DNA of 64,000 nucleotides. It comes from Anaerococcus octavius. Lineage in GTDB: Bacteria > Bacillota > Clostridia > Tissierellales > Peptoniphilaceae. Each line of letters starts with the position of its first letter. Within the stretch, counting starts at the first letter, position 1. The notes under the pieces were generated by a model that had not been told where the DNA came from, made no database searches, and worked only from the letters and a program-made list of their open reading frames with translations. Both the position numbers and the translations under genes were made by a program. The stretch is from assembly GCF_900445265.1 (NCBI RefSeq), contig NZ_UFTA01000002.1:744001-808000 (forward strand), given 5' to 3'. Below are positions 4,222 through 64,000 of this stretch, one piece after another.

Positions 4222-5043
4222 ATGGATTATCAAATTTATTTTATTCCAACACCAATAGGAAATTTGGAAGATATGACAATTAGAGCAATAAATACTTTAA
4301 AAAAAGTAGATATTATTGCATGTGAAGACACCAGAGAAAGTAAAAAATTACTCGATTATTATGAAATTAACAAGCCTCTTACCTCTTATCATAAATTTAA
4401 TGAAACAAGTAAATCAATAGAAATTATTGAAAATGTAAAAGAAGGAAAAACTTATGGAGTTATTACCGACCAAGGTATGCCAGGTATTTCTGATCCAGGT
4501 CATATACTTATAAAACAATGTATAGAAGAAAATGTATCTTATACAATATTGCCAGGTGCAAGTGCTATGATAACAGCTCTTGTAGGTTCAGGACTTGATA
4601 ATAATAAATTTACTTACTATGGATTTATCCCTAAAAAAAAATCTGATAAGATTAAACTTTATAAAGAATTAGAAAATGAAAATAAAACATCAATAATATT
4701 TGATACCCCCCATAATTTAGAAAATACTATAGCTGACTTTAAGAAATATTTTTCTGATCGCAAACTATGTATAGCACGTGAGCTTACAAAAAAATTTGAG
4801 GAATATATATTAGAAGATATTTCAAAAATAAGTATAGAAGAAATAACTTTAAAAGGTGAATTTGTATTGCTATTATCAGGAAAAAAGCAAAGCAATAATC
4901 TAAAAATTACTGACTATGAAGATAAAATTAAAAATCAAATCGACCAAGGTATTAGTACAAAAGATATAGTCAAAAATATAAAAAAAACTACAGATTTTTC
5001 AAAAAATGAGATATATGAATATGTACTTTATTTAAATAAGTAA
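4222..5043 (+). CDS. rsmI: 16S rRNA (cytidine-1402-2'-O)-methyltransferase RsmI
   Basis: 273 residues. Methylates the ribose of C1402 at the ribosomal decoding centre using SAM. Family blocks are all present: PTPIGNLEDMT near the N-terminus, CEDTRESKKLL, the TDQGMPGISDPG glycine-rich block and LPGASAMITAL. The start at 4222 follows AAAGGAG (4210-4216); nine extra codons upstream are possible in frame but lie across the terminator and leader. A TGATACAAT box (4196-4204) just after the previous terminator may be an extended -10 promoter. It is closed by a hairpin shared with the convergent downstream gene. Confidence 0.94.
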   Translation: MDYQIYFIPTPIGNLEDMTIRAINTLKKVDIIACEDTRESKKLLDYYEINKPLTSYHKFNETSKSIEIIENVKEGKTYGVITDQGMPGISDPGHILIKQCIEENVSYTILPGASAMITALVGSGLDNNKFTYYGFIPKKKSDKIKLYKELENENKTSIIFDTPHNLENTIADFKKYFSDRKLCIARELTKKFEEYILEDISKISIEEITLKGEFVLLLSGKKQSNNLKITDYEDKIKNQIDQGISTKDIVKNIKKTTDFSKNEIYEYVLYLNK

Positions 5044-5066
5044 ATCGGGCATTAAACCCGATTTTT
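5042..5066. terminator. Bidirectional terminator between rsmI and the dehydrogenase gene
   Basis: AAATCGGG paired with CCCGATTT across a 7-nt loop. T residues follow on the + strand and A residues precede it, so it can serve both convergent genes. It overlaps the last bases of each. Confidence 0.85.
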
Positions 5067-6048
5067 AATTCACTCTATTTTCACTATCACCAGTTTCAAT
5101 AACCTCTACTGCATTATCTAAGGCAAATTTAATTTGATTTTCTAATGCAGTTTTTGTAAAATATGCAACGTGATTATACATATCAACTTTAGGATTTTCT
5201 AGTAAACTATCAAAGATCTTATCATCATATTTAGGCTTATCATAGCCATATATATCAGCTTCGTTCTCATAAACATCTAAAGCCGCCCCATGAATCTTTC
5301 CACTTTTAATTGATGATAATAAGGCTTTTGTATCAATTAATCCACCTCGAGAAGTATTTACAATAAATGATCCATCCTTCATTTTGTCAAAAGCTTTTTT
5401 ATCAAACTGGTGGAAGTTTTCTTTAACTAAGGCTGAATGGATTGTAATAATATCTGATTTTGCTAAAAGTTCATCAAATTCTACAAAATCCACTATGTTT
5501 TTTGAGTAAGTTTTTGGATGTGGAGTTGTCGATATTATTTCTACACCAAATCCGGTTAATCCTTGTGCAACTAAATAACCTATTGTGCCTAAACCATAAA
5601 TACCAATAGTTTTTCCTCTAATAGTTTGCCCTAATTTATTTTCACTAAAGCGAAAGTCTTTTTTTCTCATATCTTTTTGAATTTCGCTATCCTTTTTAAG
5701 TAATTTTAATATCATCATTATAGTAAACTCTGCAATAGATTCTGGCGAATAATTAGGAGTATTAGTTATTATAAGTCCTGATTGTTTTGCTTTATCTAAG
5801 TCTATTTGGTCAAATCCAACCGATGTAATGGATATTTGTTTTATACCATAATCCGCAATCTTTTGATAAATATTATCTTCCAAAGAATTTTTAATCGTAC
5901 ATACCACACCGTCTGCATGCTCTAGTCTATTTATATTATCATTATTTATAACTTCATCTATTATATCCACTTCTATATTATTTTCTTCTTCCCAGTCCTT
6001 TATATATTTTATGGCTAGAGGATGTGGTTTATACACACATATTTTCAT
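5065..6048 (-). CDS. D-2-hydroxyacid dehydrogenase, D-lactate dehydrogenase type
   Basis: 327 residues. Reversibly reduces a 2-keto acid (probably pyruvate to D-lactate) with NADH. The Rossmann motif GLGTIG is at 152-157, catalytic Arg234 is in NTSRGG, Glu263 in YENEAD and His293 in YNHVAYFT; these match the Arg/Glu/His triad positions of the D-LDH family. The ATG follows AAGGAG. A promoter (TTGCCT, 16-nt spacer, TATTAT) lies upstream. D-LDH would regenerate NAD+ in a fermenting anaerobe and supply D-lactate; the substrate assignment is by family resemblance. Confidence 0.88.
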   Translation of the reverse strand: MKICVYKPHPLAIKYIKDWEEENNIEVDIIDEVINNDNINRLEHADGVVCTIKNSLEDNIYQKIADYGIKQISITSVGFDQIDLDKAKQSGLIITNTPNYSPESIAEFTIMMILKLLKKDSEIQKDMRKKDFRFSENKLGQTIRGKTIGIYGLGTIGYLVAQGLTGFGVEIISTTPHPKTYSKNIVDFVEFDELLAKSDIITIHSALVKENFHQFDKKAFDKMKDGSFIVNTSRGGLIDTKALLSSIKSGKIHGAALDVYENEADIYGYDKPKYDDKIFDSLLENPKVDMYNHVAYFTKTALENQIKFALDNAVEVIETGDSENRVN

Positions 6049-55052: not shown

Positions 55053-55598
55053 TTAATAATATTTATAATTTTGGAAAGCATGAATAATTGATCTAATACC
55101 TAGTACTAAGAAGTATATACCTACTAGCGTTATTATAGTAAGAGAAGCGCTCATAGGGTTATTGATCATCATAGCTCCCAAAATTATACCTAAAATATTT
55201 AATACTAGTAGTGAAGTCCAAGCACCATTTGCAAAAATTTTTAATGGACTACTAATTACAATTCCCATAATAGAAGTAAATATAAACCAAATTGCAAATA
55301 TATATGGTAGGGCCATAAATGTAGTTTGAATATCAGCTAATATTATAATACCTAGGATAATTTGTATAACACCAGAAAATATGCTTGCATTATAATTATC
55401 ATAATCATAATATTTATTTAGTCTACTACCAAGTGTAATTTCTCCGATTCCAGATAAAATTACTGATATTCCTAATAAAACTGCTATACTCATTAAACTC
55501 GTCTGTGGATCTCTAAATGCAATAATTGCAATAATAATATATAAAATTCCTAATACAAGACTATCCCAATTTACACGGTTATTTCTTCCATCTGCCAT
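55053..55598 (-). CDS. HdeD-family (DUF308) membrane protein
   Basis: 181 residues from ATG 55598 (AAAGGAG); seven extra codons upstream have no site. Six membrane helices with LVLGILYIIIAIIAFRDPQTSL and IILGIIILADI, the HdeD/DUF308 hallmark. Associated with acid or general stress in other bacteria. Directly follows the HEPN/nuclease gene; the stop of that gene and this ribosome site overlap. Confidence 0.85.
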   Translation of the reverse strand: MADGRNNRVNWDSLVLGILYIIIAIIAFRDPQTSLMSIAVLLGISVILSGIGEITLGSRLNKYYDYDNYNASIFSGVIQIILGIIILADIQTTFMALPYIFAIWFIFTSIMGIVISSPLKIFANGAWTSLLVLNILGIILGAMMINNPMSASLTIITLVGIYFLVLGIRSIIHAFQNYKYY

Positions 55599-55611: not shown

Positions 55612-56532
55612 TTATTCAAAGCTATTTTTTATTTTTCTAGCTCTTTCAATTTCACTGACCATATCCCTACCTGCCATCATTTTTTTAATATTTTTTACAT
55701 CTAAAATAATAACTTCATGGTCTAATAGCTCTTCTTTACTTTCTTCATCTAAATATGACGTATTTATTATAAGCAAAGGAGTTATGCCATCCATCAACTC
55801 TTCGTATTGATCTAATAATTCTTTAATAAAATTCTTATCCACCACCTTTTCATAATCATAATTTTTAATATCTATAGCATATTTTTTATCATTTTTTTTA
55901 GCAAATAGTTCAAATTCATGACTTTTTTCATACTTTTCCTGGAATGATGCTATATAGTAGCCGTTTTGTTGAAAAGCTTTTGTAATAAATTTTTGTGAGT
56001 TAAAGTCAAATAATATATTTCTCAATGCCTTTAATAAATTACTAGGATTAATTTTGAAAAATCCTCTATATTCTGTGGTTTCTTCATATCTTTGTAAATC
56101 AAAACCTACTAGAATATTATCAATCACATTAAAATTTCCATGTGCTATAGCATTTCGAATATGCCTTAATAATGCCATAGTTTTAGTTTCACCATTTGCT
56201 AATGTCATTATAATCTTTGGACATTTCGTACAAATCTTATCTAAAAATGGTTTGATTAGTTCATCTGAAATCTCATCTGTAAAAAGCACATCTTCATCTT
56301 TGAGCTTCATTTTCTTCATTAATTCTATAAAAATAAAATCATCATATCTAGGATTTAATAATAGCTCATTATGCTGTGATTGCTCAGATTTTATATTTGG
56401 CACATACCATAATAGATAATAAATAGCTTCCCTGAGCTCATCGCTTAACTGGAGAGGAATATCTTTATGCTTTATTGAATATTCAATTTTATTATCTGGC
56501 GGATCAAATTCAAATTTTTCTGTAAGTTCCAT
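55612..56532 (-). CDS. HEPN-like RNxxxH and PD-(D/E)xK-like two-domain protein
   Basis: 306 residues, soluble, no signal. Middle: LLRHIRNAIAHGNF, with Arg126-Asn127-x3-His131 on a predicted helix, the HEPN ribonuclease motif; an acidic helical stretch precedes it (about 60-115). C-terminal: HEFELFAKKNDKKYAIDIKNYD, with Glu208 and Asp221-x-Lys223, looks like a PD-(D/E)xK nuclease core. I do not recognise a named family. It follows a macrodomain gene by 9 nt in one operon. The combination suggests a nuclease effector with an ADP-ribose-acting partner, as in toxin-antitoxin or antiphage systems; this is inference. Confidence 0.55.
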   Translation of the reverse strand: MELTEKFEFDPPDNKIEYSIKHKDIPLQLSDELREAIYYLLWYVPNIKSEQSQHNELLLNPRYDDFIFIELMKKMKLKDEDVLFTDEISDELIKPFLDKICTKCPKIIMTLANGETKTMALLRHIRNAIAHGNFNVIDNILVGFDLQRYEETTEYRGFFKINPSNLLKALRNILFDFNSQKFITKAFQQNGYYIASFQEKYEKSHEFELFAKKNDKKYAIDIKNYDYEKVVDKNFIKELLDQYEELMDGITPLLIINTSYLDEESKEELLDHEVIILDVKNIKKMMAGRDMVSEIERARKIKNSFE

Positions 56533-56541
56533 ATAAAACCT

Positions 56542-57036
56542 TCAAACACTTTTTGCTAAATTATATAAATTAATGTCTATAATAGTTAAATAAATTTCCA
56601 TATCATTTTCACTTAAAAATCTATTTATAATATCTTGTGCAACTGCTATAGCTTCTTTATATGGATACCCATAAATGCCGGCAGATATCAAAGGAAACGC
56701 CAGAGAGTTAACGTTATTTTCTTTAGCTAGCTTTAAAGAATTCTTATAAGAATTTTCCAAATATTTTTTTGAAATTGCCGGATTGTTAGGATCATAAATA
56801 GGGCCTGCTGTATGTATTATATATTTTGTTTTTAAATCAAATCCATCTGTTATTATTGATTCTCCAGTTTTTATAGGAGCAAGTTTATCGCAAGCTTCTT
56901 GTAATTTTTTTGCTCCTGCTGCTTTAAAAATTGCACCACATACTCCTCCTCCCATTTTTAAGGAAGTATTTGCTGCGTTTACTATTGCATCGACTTCTAA
57001 ATTTGTTATATCTTCATTAATTATTTTAAAACTCAT
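56542..57036 (-). CDS. Macrodomain protein (ADP-ribose-binding/deacylase-like)
   Basis: 164 residues, one macro domain. AIVNAANTSLKMGGGVCGAIFKAAG is the MacroD-type loop; the usual Asp and His of GGGVDGxIH are Cys and Phe here (GGGVCGAIF). LISAGIYGYP is the second ligand loop. In relatives it binds ADP-ribose and removes O-acetyl or ADP-ribosyl groups; catalysis is uncertain given the changed loop. Ribosome site AAGG. Starts an operon with the HEPN/nuclease-like gene. Confidence 0.85.
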   Translation of the reverse strand: MSFKIINEDITNLEVDAIVNAANTSLKMGGGVCGAIFKAAGAKKLQEACDKLAPIKTGESIITDGFDLKTKYIIHTAGPIYDPNNPAISKKYLENSYKNSLKLAKENNVNSLAFPLISAGIYGYPYKEAIAVAQDIINRFLSENDMEIYLTIIDINLYNLAKSV

Positions 57037-57132: not shown

Positions 57133-58149
57133 TCACCTTATATACTGCTCAATATCATTAAAAAAATCACTTACATAATAATCAGTAAATTCTTTCTTTG
57201 ACCTATCAAAATAATAAAAATAATACGGACTACCATTTGCAACCATTCCTGTAACATCTACATAGGACCAATTGTCATTAAGCTTTATGACATTCCACTG
57301 ATGTTCTCCAGAATATCCATCTGGTCTTTTCTTCTGTTTAGTATTTCCTGTTACTGAGTAAGTAGGAATACCTACTCTTTGGCAAAGTATAGCAAAACTT
57401 TGTGCAAAACCAGAACACTGAGATAGCCCTTTTACTAAAGCACCATACATATTATTTTCTATTATATTATCTGGACTTGCATCAAATTGATATTCATTAT
57501 TTTCTGCAAGCCATTGGGCGAAATAATATGCCTTATCGTAATTATTATCATAATTTTCATTGGCATAATCCACTAGAACTTGCAATTGTCTTTCAACTTG
57601 TTCTGTTTCTTCTTCTGTCATATATGTTTTTGTGTTTTCTTCAATCTGATATCTTGGGACTATTTTAAATGTATCCTCATCAAACCAATAATTAGCATAG
57701 ATATAAGCTTCCATTTTCCCTTGTGAATAATATGGACTGATTAAAAATAAATCTCTTATAAAATACATCTTGTCATCAAAATCATCTTCTAAATTTACTT
57801 TTGGGTCTTGTAAAGCCTCAGTAAGCAAACGGCTTACATAAAAGATATTATTTTCATCATCGTAATACTCCATCATGCGAGTGCCATACTTATCTTGTGT
57901 TTTTAAATCAGCAAATCTATCTTTTAACAAAAAATCAGGTTTTATTATTTCATAATTTAATTTTTTCGGCTTAAAATTAACATGCTTTAATATAGGACTT
58001 TTGGGTTTTACTTTTTCTTTTGATGGATAATTTTTATCAGCAAATTCTTCTTTTTTTGTATTTGGAATTGGTGAAATGCCACCTTCTTTACTTTTGCTCC
58101 CACAAGAAGTTAGCGTCAATAAAATAAGTACATAAATAAGCTCTTTCAT
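57133..58149 (-). CDS. Lipoprotein with transglutaminase-like cysteine-protease domain
   Basis: 338 residues. A lipobox LTSC puts the lipid on Cys16; a Lys/Pro-rich linker follows. The domain has Cys245 (GLSQCSGFAQ), His283 (GEHQWNV) and Asp298 (SYVDVT), the catalytic triad order of transglutaminase-core proteins. Likely an outer-surface protease or transglutaminase acting on cell-wall proteins; no target evident. AAAGGA before the ATG. Confidence 0.88.
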   Translation of the reverse strand: MKELIYVLILLTLTSCGSKSKEGGISPIPNTKKEEFADKNYPSKEKVKPKSPILKHVNFKPKKLNYEIIKPDFLLKDRFADLKTQDKYGTRMMEYYDDENNIFYVSRLLTEALQDPKVNLEDDFDDKMYFIRDLFLISPYYSQGKMEAYIYANYWFDEDTFKIVPRYQIEENTKTYMTEEETEQVERQLQVLVDYANENYDNNYDKAYYFAQWLAENNEYQFDASPDNIIENNMYGALVKGLSQCSGFAQSFAILCQRVGIPTYSVTGNTKQKKRPDGYSGEHQWNVIKLNDNWSYVDVTGMVANGSPYYFYYFDRSKKEFTDYYVSDFFNDIEQYIR

Positions 58150-58174: not shown

Positions 58175-59167
58175 TTACATTTTACCATAAAAGTAAAGCC
58201 CCATAGAAAACTCTCCATCTTTATTAGATAGAACATTAACATCAATTCCCAAATCATCTGTATATTTTTTTACTAAATATAAACCCAATCCTGTGGATAA
58301 ACTATTTTTCGATGACTTGCCAGTATATCCTTTTTCAAATATAAAGGGTAAATCTTGATTATCTATATGCTTACCATTGTTTGTTATGATTAAAATTTTG
58401 TTATCCCCTATTATAGTTTTAAAATTTATAGTGTCTATAGTATATTTTATAGCATTGCTAATTATTTGAGATATAATAAATTTTAATGTATAAAAATCAC
58501 TCAAAACATACATATCTTTTATTTCATCTATAATTTTTATTTCTTTTTCTGAAAGTATTGGATAGTAATCAGAGATTGCCTTATAAACTACTTCTTTTAT
58601 ATTTAATTCTTTTAAATCATAGTCAGTTTTTATAGAATTTGACCTTGCAAAATATAAGATGAGATCTAAATCTACTTTTATAAGTTGGCTAGCATATAAA
58701 AGTTTTTCATAAGTACTTGACTTTATATCATTTTGATTATTTTCTAAAACTAAATCTAGTGATGATATTGGTACTTTTACTTCATGCACCCACTTTTCAA
58801 TGATATCTTTGTAAGAAAGTAAATCAATTCTTTGCTTTTCAATCTTTTCGTTTAAAGACTTATTTAAATTAAAAATGTTATATACAGTGGATTTATAATC
58901 AATCCCCAAAACATCAATTAATTTATCCATACTTTCATAGTCCATCTTTTTATAAAATTTACTCAACGATTTTTTTATATTTCTTTGTCTATTTATTTCT
59001 TTTAATAAAATTATACCTATTGAAATTATCGAAAAAATTATAATTATTGCTAATATGTTTTTTATAATTTTTCCATTTACTACATATATTAAAAAAATAA
59101 AAAGAAAATTTGTTAAAATGATTATAACTATACTAGGTGTAATGTTTTTTAAAAAACTGTATTTCAT
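58175..59167 (-). CDS. BceS-type intramembrane-sensing histidine kinase
   Basis: 330 residues. Two closely spaced N-terminal membrane helices (about 10-31 and 35-53) with only a few residues outside, so it cannot sense by itself; in this family the partner permease does. His-box WVHEVKVPISSLDL, ATPase boxes QIISNAIKYTI and GLGLYLVKKYT. Overlaps the regulator by 4 nt and belongs to the adjacent ABC transporter, as in BceRS systems for peptide antibiotics. Confidence 0.88.
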   Translation of the reverse strand: MKYSFLKNITPSIVIIILTNFLFIFLIYVVNGKIIKNILAIIIIFSIISIGIILLKEINRQRNIKKSLSKFYKKMDYESMDKLIDVLGIDYKSTVYNIFNLNKSLNEKIEKQRIDLLSYKDIIEKWVHEVKVPISSLDLVLENNQNDIKSSTYEKLLYASQLIKVDLDLILYFARSNSIKTDYDLKELNIKEVVYKAISDYYPILSEKEIKIIDEIKDMYVLSDFYTLKFIISQIISNAIKYTIDTINFKTIIGDNKILIITNNGKHIDNQDLPFIFEKGYTGKSSKNSLSTGLGLYLVKKYTDDLGIDVNVLSNKDGEFSMGLYFYGKM

Positions 59168-59835
59168 ACTTCCTCTATGTTTATCTTGTATCCTACCGAT
59201 CTTACATTCACAATAAAATTATCCAATCCCAAACTTTTTAACTTTTTTCTAAGCCTATTTATATTCACATGCAAGATATTTTCATCAATATATTCGGTAT
59301 TCCATGTTTGCTTTAATAATTCATCTTTACTTATAGCATTTGGATAAGCTTTCATAAGACTAGCTAATAATTCTCCCTCGTTTTGTGCAAGTATTACAAA
59401 TGTATTTTTATAAGTTAATTTATTAGTAGAAGTTTCTAAAACTATATTGTTTAATCTTATTTCATCTGAGAAATTTTCATATATATTGAGAAGTTTCTTA
59501 GATCTTGCTATCAGTCTGTTTACTGAAACAGGCTTTGTCAAAAATTCATCTGCACCTAAATCAAACGATTGTAATTCATCTTCTAAAGTATTTCTGCTTG
59601 TCAAAATCAAAACAGGAGTTGTCAATTTATCTTTTATACTTGTTAAAATTTCATATCCTGAATAATTTGGTAAATTTATATCTAATATTATTAAGTTGAA
59701 ATTTTTAAAGTAACTTATATCTAAAGATTGATCAAAATCATTAAAAATTACTGCATCAAAATCTCTAGAAATAAACAAATTTTTCAGTTCTTCAGCTAAA
59801 ATTTTATCATCTTCAATAATAATTATTTTTTTCAT
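59164..59835 (-). CDS. BceR-type OmpR-family response regulator
   Basis: 223 residues. Receiver with IIEDDKI, phospho-Asp in LIILDINLP (about 54), Lys in EFLTKPVS; C-terminal winged helix with NVRSVGYKI. Ribosome site GGAG. Lies between the permease gene (3 nt away) and the kinase. Confidence 0.9.
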   Translation of the reverse strand: MKKIIIIEDDKILAEELKNLFISRDFDAVIFNDFDQSLDISYFKNFNLIILDINLPNYSGYEILTSIKDKLTTPVLILTSRNTLEDELQSFDLGADEFLTKPVSVNRLIARSKKLLNIYENFSDEIRLNNIVLETSTNKLTYKNTFVILAQNEGELLASLMKAYPNAISKDELLKQTWNTEYIDENILHVNINRLRKKLKSLGLDNFIVNVRSVGYKINIEEV

Positions 59836-59838
59836 AAT

Positions 59839-61707
59839 TTACTCCAGTTTCGTTATGCTTATTTCTAAAAATCTTTTTAAAATAATGTATAAAATAACAT
59901 TTAAAATAATGGGCAGTATAATTGTAAGAAGAATAAAAATGATACTTTTGCTAGTAAAGATCCTTTTACTTATATAAATAGATACCAATATACCATAGTA
60001 TATGATATAAATAAGACTAAAAATATATCTTAAAATATAAAAATAAAAGTCTTTAACGTCAGTCTCTAATTTTTGTTTTGAAGCCCCAAGGTCTTTCATA
60101 ATTCTAAATCCTACACTATTATCTAAAATTACTCTCATTAACCTCATACCTAAAAATGAATAAGAGGTAAATAAAGAAATAATTGCTAAATAACATATCA
60201 TAAATAAAGATCCTAATATTTTTGCGTATGTATCTTTAATCATCCATATTAAACTTTCAAAACGTATATTATTTTTTTCAAGATCTTTCCTAAACTTTTC
60301 AGATACCTTTTCATATCCATTTTTCTCGGTATAATTCTTATTTAGTACTATATTATATGCATGATAATTAGTGAATTTCTTAAACTTATTATATAAGTTA
60401 TCATTTATTACATAGATATTACTTTCTGTAATTACATTATTTGCAAAAATAACATTAGAATTTTGAATACCTTTTATTAGTAATTCTTTATTATCAATAT
60501 ATATTTTTCTCTTATTTTTTAATAAATACTTATTTATATTTGAGTTTATGTTCTTCATACTGGTTAAATAAATAGCCTCATTTGCCTTTAATTTTAAAGC
60601 ATCTTCCTTAAAAATATATTTATAAGTAGAATAATCCATTATTATAGGATCATTTAAAATTTGATCATCACTCTTATCAGTCATATAAAATAATAAATTC
60701 TTAAAGTCGCTATCGTCAATTTTGTTTACTGATGATAAATTAACGGTATAGATATTATTCGTAATTTTCGAAAATTTTTTTATATTGTATATATCATTAA
60801 TATTTTTAGAATCTACAAAAATGGTAAAATCAGGTCTTAACTCTTTGTTTATTTTATATTTGTTATATTGAGTTAAGCCATATAAAAACTCAAAGCTTGA
60901 TATAATAATTAAAAAAATAACTAATATCATTGTAAATTTTTCTTTAGAAAAGATATCATTTAACAAAGCCTTAATCAAGAAAGCATTTTTATGAATTTTA
61001 TTAATATGAGCTATTATAAAATTTATGCCAACAAAGATACAGACAAAAATAACGATACTTAGTATAAGCACTTCATTAAGGTAATAGTTATTTTTGAAAT
61101 AATATATTAAAGTGATTAAGAAAAATAAGCTTGTTAATATTCTTGTATTATGTTTTCTTTTTACTAAATCTAATGGATAACTTTTTGTAAGATTTCGAGT
61201 TATTAATAAATTTGAAATCCCAATAAAAATGATTATACATATTAAAGATAGAAATATAGCATTTAATGAAATAAAAAATTTATGTTCACTAAGTATTAAT
61301 TTTGTAAAAGAAATTGATAATAAGTTTAATAGTTCAGAAATAAATAGTGCTACTGGCAAAGAAATTAAAATTGTATTTATTAAGTCAGATAGTGAATCTT
61401 TCATAAGAATAAAAAACAAGTCTTTAGATTTTAATCCTAGACTTAATAAAGCTCTTAAGTCCATCTCTTTGCTTTTACTATTAAAAATAATTGTTTCTAT
61501 AATCAAACTACCAATAACGAATAAAGAAACGATTAAAATATATTTTATATTATTAGTAACCGCTAACTGTTCGTCATAATATATATTAAAAAATAGTTCA
61601 TTATTTACCAGATTTAGCAAAGTATATAGAAAAATAAAAGTTAGAGCTATTATAAAACTATTTATGAAATTTTCTTTATCCAGTTTTTTATAGCTTAATT
61701 TTTTCAT
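59839..61707 (-). CDS. BceB/FtsX-type ABC transporter permease
   Basis: 622 residues. About ten membrane helices arranged as 1+3, 2+4 with a large outer domain (about 280-480) between helices 7 and 8, the BceB plan for binding peptide antibiotics such as bacitracin or lantibiotics. It should signal to the kinase next to it. Substrate unknown. Confidence 0.86.
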   Translation of the reverse strand: MKKLSYKKLDKENFINSFIIALTFIFLYTLLNLVNNELFFNIYYDEQLAVTNNIKYILIVSLFVIGSLIIETIIFNSKSKEMDLRALLSLGLKSKDLFFILMKDSLSDLINTILISLPVALFISELLNLLSISFTKLILSEHKFFISLNAIFLSLICIIIFIGISNLLITRNLTKSYPLDLVKRKHNTRILTSLFFLITLIYYFKNNYYLNEVLILSIVIFVCIFVGINFIIAHINKIHKNAFLIKALLNDIFSKEKFTMILVIFLIIISSFEFLYGLTQYNKYKINKELRPDFTIFVDSKNINDIYNIKKFSKITNNIYTVNLSSVNKIDDSDFKNLLFYMTDKSDDQILNDPIIMDYSTYKYIFKEDALKLKANEAIYLTSMKNINSNINKYLLKNKRKIYIDNKELLIKGIQNSNVIFANNVITESNIYVINDNLYNKFKKFTNYHAYNIVLNKNYTEKNGYEKVSEKFRKDLEKNNIRFESLIWMIKDTYAKILGSLFMICYLAIISLFTSYSFLGMRLMRVILDNSVGFRIMKDLGASKQKLETDVKDFYFYILRYIFSLIYIIYYGILVSIYISKRIFTSKSIIFILLTIILPIILNVILYIILKRFLEISITKLE

Positions 61708-61716
61708 ATTATTAGC

Positions 61717-62469
61717 CTACTTTATAATTTGTTTGCTTACTAAATTTATCCTTTGTTTATAATCTTTAATACTTTCTCTATCTTTTTTGCTTATTTCATT
61801 ATATATCTTTCCATCTTTTAAAAATAATATTCTACTACAAATGCTTGCAGCATTTATATCATGTGTTGCCATTATTATAGAGATATTACTACATTCATTA
61901 ACATTTTTTAAAACTTTTAAAAATTTTCTGGAATTTTTTGTATCCAAAGCACTTGTCGGTTCATCAGCCAAAATAATTTTGGGATTAATAGAAATTGCTC
62001 TTATTGCTGCAATCCTTTGTTTTTGTCCACCTGATAATTCCTTAGGATACATATTTAAACAATCATATACATCCAACTTTTTAGCCAGTTTTTCGATGTT
62101 TTCCATATCTATTTCTTTATTATGAATTATAAATGGCACTTCTATATTTTCCAATGCTGTCATATTTTCAATTAGTCTATAATCTTGAAAGATATTTGTA
62201 ACTTCGTTTCCTCTATACTTTTCTAAATCTTTGCGGCTAAATTTATTTAAATTTTTGCCGTCAAAATTTATCTGACCATTAGTAGCTTCTACTACACCAG
62301 AAATCATGTTTAACAAAGTAGTTTTACCTGAACCACTCATTCCCATTATCCCCAAAAATTCACCTTCTAACAAGTCTAAGCTAATATCATTAACTGCAGT
62401 TATATATTCATTTGTAGTTCCATATATTTTATTTAAATATTTGACGACCAAAATACGTTTAAATTTCAT
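61717..62469 (-). CDS. BceA-type ABC transporter ATP-binding protein
   Basis: 250 residues. Walker A GMSGSGKTTLLN, Q-loop NIFQDYRLIENMT, signature LSGGQKQRIAAIRA, Walker B IILADEPTSALD, H-loop ATHD. MacB/BceA-like. First gene of an ABC-permease-regulator-kinase operon (order A-B-R-S, the reverse of Bacillus bceRSAB). GAGG ribosome site. Confidence 0.94.
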   Translation of the reverse strand: MKFKRILVVKYLNKIYGTTNEYITAVNDISLDLLEGEFLGIMGMSGSGKTTLLNMISGVVEATNGQINFDGKNLNKFSRKDLEKYRGNEVTNIFQDYRLIENMTALENIEVPFIIHNKEIDMENIEKLAKKLDVYDCLNMYPKELSGGQKQRIAAIRAISINPKIILADEPTSALDTKNSRKFLKVLKNVNECSNISIIMATHDINAASICSRILFLKDGKIYNEISKKDRESIKDYKQRINLVSKQIIK

Positions 62470-63291: not shown

Positions 63292-64000
63292 TTAGTTGTA
63301 AGAATTAGATTTAAAATTAGATTTGTCTATATTCACATTCAGATACTTGTATGCGCCTTCTAGGTCAAGATAATTATTTATAACATATTCTGCTCTCAAA
63401 TTCTCAGGAACTAAAACCATGTACTTATTTGCAATAAGATATGCATCTAACAAAGTTTTTTCTTTAAGCAAAAATTTAAATATTTGATCTTTGCTTACCG
63501 GATTTATTCTGCTCTCATCAAAAATTTCTGGTGTATTGGGACCACAAACCATACTATCAGCTTCTGAAATAAAATATGAAGTAGATTTGCTGATTATATT
63601 AAACATAATAGCAAGCGTTCTATTTATCTTTGTAGACTGAAATGTCATAAGACCTATATAATCATCTTCTACAGAAAATGGATAGTGGTAAGGTTTTAAG
63701 GCATCATGCAACTCATAGATATATTTTTTAGAATCGTCATCAAATTCAAACTCGTTTGGGTTATCAATTATAAATCTCATTCTTTCTCTAATAATAGGAC
63801 TGATATCTACATTCCCTGCTGATAAGAATTTTGGTGGTGCTCCTTCACTTGCAGCTGAAACACGAATTTTTTTGCTGTCTCTATATATTTTATCTATTTT
63901 CCAAACTTGACCAGCTAAGAATATATTTGCCTCTTCTTGAACTTCTGGACGTATTTCTATTTCCCCAATTTTTCCACTTTCGTTATAGACAGTAAATGCC
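63292..64000 (-). CDS. Lhr-type DEAD/DEAH helicase, C-terminal fragment
   Basis: The frame is open from the window end (first full codon at 63999) to a stop at 63292. The ATG at 63780 is internal, not the start. The visible 235 residues read ...GEIEIRPEVQEEANIFLAGQ, VWKIDKIYRDSKKIRVS and EGAPPKFL, the beta-rich domain that follows the helicase core in Lhr-like ATP-dependent helicases. Helicase motifs lie beyond the window. Likely DNA repair or RNA/DNA remodelling; the assignment rests on that C-terminal block. Confidence 0.6.
   Translation of the reverse strand, partial: AFTVYNESGKIGEIEIRPEVQEEANIFLAGQVWKIDKIYRDSKKIRVSAASEGAPPKFLSAGNVDISPIIRERMRFIIDNPNEFEFDDDSKKYIYELHDALKPYHYPFSVEDDYIGLMTFQSTKINRTLAIMFNIISKSTSYFISEADSMVCGPNTPEIFDESRINPVSKDQIFKFLLKEKTLLDAYLIANKYMVLVPENLRAEYVINNYLDLEGAYKYLNVNIDKSNFKSNSYN

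Follow-up and report, generated by a model that had tools for sequence, protein, structure and literature searches.

We analysed a 64,000-nt stretch of the Anaerococcus octavius genome (contig NZ_UFTA01000002.1, positions 744,001 to 808,000; hereafter, the window), in which two open reading frames (ORFs) on the minus strand, 9 nt apart, encode a macrodomain protein and, downstream of it, a protein that we call HEPN-Mrr, with a HEPN-type N-terminal half and an Mrr-type C-terminal domain. A first-pass annotation of the window had described both ORFs correctly, and its calls of a HEPN and a PD-(D/E)xK-like domain were borne out, the former by motif and profile rather than by fold. The best named matches of the window proteins were to Anaerococcus, then Peptoniphilus, and comparisons were made with a genus set of 31 genomes, taken as Anaerococcus (window genome G000, 1.9 Mb). 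The features of the locus are collected in Table 1.

The HEPN-Mrr protein and its locus

The N-terminal half of HEPN-Mrr has the Rx4-6H motif of HEPN domains, with a polar residue after the arginine. In a second signature, LLWYVPNIxSxQS, residues W42, Y43, P45 and Q51 are present in all 71 alignment rows with a letter at these positions; near-invariant as it is, this signature lies mostly inside a low-confidence stretch of both models. Profile-profile comparison of the family with PF18736 gave 95.4%, and all 12 A1 members matched PF18736 below threshold at E <= 1 (best, 3.2e-5). Because the window protein scores 15.8 bits against a gathering threshold of 26.6, we file it as a probable member of the HEPN superfamily that is PF18736-like, and not as a PF18736 member. 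No PDB chain was matched by the 306-aa sequence, and in PADLOC the HEPN part gave RTasHEPN at E 0.039.

The C-terminal domain showed the PD-(D/E)xK / Mrr_cat nuclease fold. Its active-site block reads E...DxK, as compared to the D...(D/E)xK of a complete site; the positions of E208 and D221 are acidic in 71 and 70 of the 71 rows, respectively, and K223 is kept in 48. A search of viral structures gave 648 matches, five of which reached E <= 0.001: three carry the name restriction endonuclease, and the other two are uncharacterised or unnamed. A promoter scan gave 19 sites versus 24.7 expected.

Table 1. Features of the HEPN-Mrr locus (window coordinates unless a locus is named)
Feature	Position	Strand	Basis or remark
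HEPN-Mrr gene, 306 aa	55612..56532	(-)	ORF; 70 distinct homologues over 250 aa; AlphaFold pLDDT 79.7
HEPN motif R126-N127-A-I-A-H131	56140..56157	(-)	R, N, H identical in 70/70 copies over 250 aa
Second signature LLWYVPNIKSEQS, residues 40-52	56377..56415	(-)	homologue alignment and models
C-terminal PD-(D/E)xK (Mrr_cat-like) domain, residues 178-300	55633..56001	(-)	
E208...D221-x-K223 block	55864..55911	(-)	homologue alignment
Macrodomain protein, 164 aa, MacroD-like	56542..57036	(-)	PF01661 1.5e-39; best solved chain MACROD2
Loop GGGVCGAIF	56926..56952	(-)	within macrodomain gene
HdeD/DUF308 membrane protein, downstream of HEPN-Mrr	55053..55598	(-)	profile match
Transglutaminase-core lipoprotein, directly upstream of macrodomain gene	57133..58149	(-)	PF01841 4.7e-12; family f15
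Sensor kinase, response regulator, permease, ABC ATPase, between Shango and macrodomain/HEPN genes	58175..62469	(-)	ORFs
SngC (Shango helicase), 3' part	63292..64000	(-)	gene continues past window end
SngB, then SngA, beyond window end after SngC	L201:8293-13476	same as HEPN gene	

Inheritance of HEPN-Mrr with and without the macrodomain gene

HEPN-Mrr is present in all 31 genus genomes; 26 of the 39 genera of the family gave no match, nor did any of the order's other 119 genomes. Across 13 close pairs, omega (simple counting method) ranged from 0.023 to 0.119, with similar constraint on the N- and C-terminal halves; over 2415 pairs, mean identity was 48% for the N half and 38% for the C half. 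The HEPN tree is congruent with those of flanking genes: at support >= 0.9, 16 of its 21 splits were shared with f5 (27 genomes) and 11 of 20 with f4 (29 genomes), with a single conflict in each case, and when all HEPN splits were counted the conflicts numbered 4/24 and 7/26, respectively. We reject the idea that the window gene came from a phage or a mobile element, since plasmids, phages and viral contigs gave no match. Second, diverged copies occur in G014, G018 and G009 (L049, L050 and L051, at about 4870-5790), each preceded after 6 nt by a gene of one family, with a thioesterase match in L049. A very diverged relative (L053:5239-6183) lies near PrgI, TraG-like and phage-antirepressor-like genes and likely sits in a conjugative element.

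The macrodomain gene is distributed differently. A full copy lies upstream of HEPN-Mrr, on the same strand and within 10 kb, in 16 of the 31 genus genomes. It is the next gene in nine of these, with gaps of -17 to 21 nt in eight and 131 nt in the ninth. Other genes intervene in the remaining seven: in five, the two lie 1.1-2.6 kb apart with a flavodoxin-like gene on the other strand (four genomes) or transposase-like genes (one) between them, and in two they are 9.6 kb apart, separated by sugar-metabolism-like genes (all named by eye). The other 15 genus genomes, of which 12 have a completeness of 90% or more, yielded no full macrodomain gene, and reading the HEPN-Mrr flanks of all 15 revealed none; HEPN-Mrr itself is intact in every one. 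In the HEPN tree, the macrodomain-bearing genomes form one clade of eight and one of nine, the latter including G030, which lacks the gene; G028 and a clade of 13 are also without it. Of the 12 HEPN-bearing genomes of a second genus, g36, eight have the macrodomain gene about 2.6 kb from HEPN-Mrr and on the opposite strand; in three more the distance is 3.4, 10.7 or 68 kb, and in the last the two genes are on different contigs. HEPN-Mrr is broken into two ORFs (L083:5059-6045) in G112, one of the eight, whose nearby macrodomain gene is open. In 24 HEPN-bearing genomes of other genera, many of them fragmented, hand comparison found no macrodomain gene within 100 kb on the same contig, and seven of them had no macrodomain match at all.

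Constraint on HEPN-Mrr is the same without the macrodomain gene, omega being 0.023, 0.052, 0.065 and 0.086 in four genus pairs that lack it. Among eight pairs with both genes, omega was higher for the macrodomain gene in seven, including five genus pairs at 0.12-0.20 versus 0.03-0.05 for HEPN-Mrr; pair G109-G121 showed the reverse (0.041 versus 0.053). We read the vicinity of the two genes as what is probably an old gene order with losses and not an obligate pair; the main argument to the contrary is that the genes recur near each other in two genera. The first-pass annotation had proposed a two-gene unit in which the macrodomain controls, or is the antidote to, the nuclease; the comparison does not support it, the genes being adjacent in 9 of 31 genomes and the macrodomain gene missing from 15. 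The pair also lacks the constant company of antitoxin and toxin that marks a type II toxin-antitoxin (TA) module, and the natural genomes with an intact HEPN-Mrr show the macrodomain gene to be dispensable and are our reason for rejecting it as an obligatory antitoxin.

The altered loop noted at first pass is real. By overall profile and by best solved chains the protein is closest to MacroD-type macrodomains, in which the Asp and His of the loop GVDGxIH have a catalytic role; C33 and F37 replace these two residues in the window protein. In the 64 full-length macrodomains that were fetched and read, a subset of all matches, the loop was of C/F type in 47, C/Y in 1 and D/H in 16. Thirty-five of the C/F macrodomains belong to HEPN-bearing and 12 to HEPN-less genomes; by hand count, such macrodomains occur in 6 of the 13 genera with HEPN-Mrr and in 6 of the 26 without it. 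Its occurrence in HEPN-less genomes led us to reject the loop as a sign of co-adaptation with HEPN-Mrr; judged from the sequences, it is a subfamily trait and not a mark of pairing. Two loops depart from GGG, namely MGAGVCRAIF (G023, L031) and GGEICGQIF (G012, L004), both in genomes with an intact HEPN-Mrr, and perhaps reflect relaxed constraint on the macrodomain. Apart from the main locus, the window genome has a macrodomain fragment covering profile positions 81-115 only (G000:C1:157356-157460, L015), and similar short matches occur in G019, G034 and G038. C-type macrodomains also occur within 333-340-aa proteins with an extra C-terminal part (L120, L127) in genomes lacking HEPN-Mrr; this part has a weak helix-turn-helix match in L120.

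Shango linkage and comparison with known systems

Shango is an anti-phage system whose three genes encode TerB, ATPase and helicase domains, and the word HEPN does not occur in the text describing it (PMC10250203). At locus L001, the upstream genes f25-f19-f14 match SngA, SngB and SngC at 51, 467 and 574 bits, and their window-genome orthologues (51, 84 and 65% identity) are open frames of 582, 441 and 709 aa, upstream of HEPN-Mrr on the same strand. These genes make up the SngA, SngB and SngC set; HEPN-Mrr corresponds to no described component of Shango and also occurs without it. A run of 12 genes, with SngA first and the HdeD gene last, shares one strand. In the set between Shango and the macrodomain gene, ABC_tran scored over its cut-off and FtsX below, and the kinase and regulator were named by eye; a similar two-component and ABC transporter set lies upstream of HEPN-Mrr in seven genus genomes. 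The HdeD/DUF308 gene is directly downstream in three (G000, G019 and G020). Overall, gene order is mostly constant downstream of HEPN-Mrr and variable upstream.

A search for SngB in 20 genus genomes gave a single match in 11, on the HEPN strand and 7.2-12.0 kb away. Eight more genomes have SngB within the fetched flank, which brings the linkage to 19 of 28 (G012, G036 and G037 lie outside the search). SngC is directly upstream of HEPN-Mrr, with gaps of 3-167 nt, in five genomes. The defence part of the first-pass proposal is thus supported through the upstream Shango system, and its TA unit with the macrodomain is not.

The nearest described relatives are the pEK499_p136-like HEPN proteins (PF18736; Anantharaman et al. 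2013, PMC3710099), which share the R-N-x3-H motif. According to Table 1 of that paper, some are "in operon with R-M genes, ADP-ribosyltransferase-like enzymes (ART), and Macro", R-M denoting restriction-modification, and Pgl components are named as well. PF18736 proteins in our genomes agree in part with these contexts: one directly precedes an HsdR gene (G471) and another lies in what by eye is a BREX/Pgl-like operon (G846). Because Table 1 places Macro in operons of this family, with these two loci partly agreeing, the HEPN-macrodomain context is not new, which qualifies the earlier statement that no system with exactly this pair had been described. The family is patchy and, in the part of the source available, is given no Mrr_cat fusion, whereas HEPN-Mrr carries one and is fixed in one genus; as far as literature searches for HEPN-macrodomain or HEPN-Mrr systems show, this fixed fusion is new. 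EC042_2821 and DUF4145-REase likewise combine a HEPN RNase with a restriction-endonuclease-fold domain in one protein; as described in the same paper, their HEPN families differ from that of HEPN-Mrr, which has an Mrr-type C-terminus and no winged helix-turn-helix or helicase part. Unlike at the known fusions, no R-M genes were recognised in the window neighbourhood of HEPN-Mrr.

In DarTG-type antitoxins, a macrodomain stands beside a nucleic-acid-acting protein. The window locus has a similar arrangement with a putative one, but its macrodomain is MacroD-like rather than DarG-like (weak DarG profile match) and the pairing is not conserved. No ART match was found among the subset of neighbouring genes that were scanned.

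A proposed intrinsic effector and its alternatives

We infer, at a probability of about 0.5, that HEPN-Mrr is an intrinsic, chromosomally fixed HEPN endoRNase whose Mrr-type half binds or senses nucleic acid, and that its role is that of an effector of the dormancy or abortive type. The HEPN half, the most conserved, would probably be the catalytic part, cleaving RNA independently of metal through R126 and H131. The Mrr-type half would most likely bind or sense DNA or RNA and cleave at most in some lineages. On this reading, the effector gene lies at the 3' border of a locus containing Shango, and the macrodomain protein would be an accessory or incidental neighbour and not an antitoxin. Several observations weigh against this account. 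A fold search of the HEPN half gave no clear outcome, although HEPN is not excluded thereby. Nine of the 20 searched genus genomes (six with a completeness of 90% or more) lack SngB, as do the fetched HEPN-Mrr flanks of other genera, and HEPN-Mrr is kept in both. The 305-aa neighbour of the G846 HEPN gene, the one scanned there, had no Pfam match (the third PF18736 protein, in G751, has neighbours outside the scan). Finally, defence genes are not usually found in every genome of a genus and under such strong purifying selection, a pattern that a housekeeping RNase would fit equally.

That RNase is the main rival and, in our estimate, somewhat unlikely: HEPN-Mrr would process cellular RNA in housekeeping or stress as the core flank of a variable region, its defence neighbourhood being incidental. 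Genus-wide fixation, tree congruence, omega down to 0.023, the constant downstream genes and the lack of plasmid, phage or viral-contig matches all agree with it, but most genera of the family and the rest of the order gave no match, PF18736 proteins elsewhere adjoin HsdR and BREX/Pgl-like genes, and the diverged L053 copy adjoins conjugation genes. We hold it unlikely that HEPN-Mrr is a backup effector of Shango, released when SngABC senses, or fails against, a phage; the same-strand linkage, the short SngC gaps and the lack of a second SngB match in the 20 searched genomes speak for such a role, but the linkage may reflect a gene order inherited from an ancestor by part of one genus, and HEPN-Mrr persists without SngB there and in the fetched flanks of other genera. 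Distinctly unlikely is a genus-fixed dual-nuclease effector into which sensors (Shango, macrodomain, transglutaminase proteins and others) are plugged upstream, with the macrodomain tuning it via ADP-ribose signals in one clade. A TA or otherwise regulated pair, with the macrodomain restraining or neutralising the nuclease, is very improbable: against the nine close upstream genes, the same-strand position of all 16 full genus copies, the g36 arrangement and the operons of Table 1 in PMC3710099 stand the 15 genomes without a macrodomain gene, the seven with intervening genes, the higher omega of the macrodomain gene and the 12 macrodomains of HEPN-less genomes with the same loop.

The case illustrates how the gene order of one clade can yield a convincing two-gene TA reading. 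HEPN RNases and Mrr nucleases are usually patchy defence genes; here, a fusion of the two is found in every genome of a genus, is strongly constrained and borders a region in which a defence system is often present. HEPN-Mrr offers a way to test whether cells have taken on a potentially lethal RNase as a permanent component.
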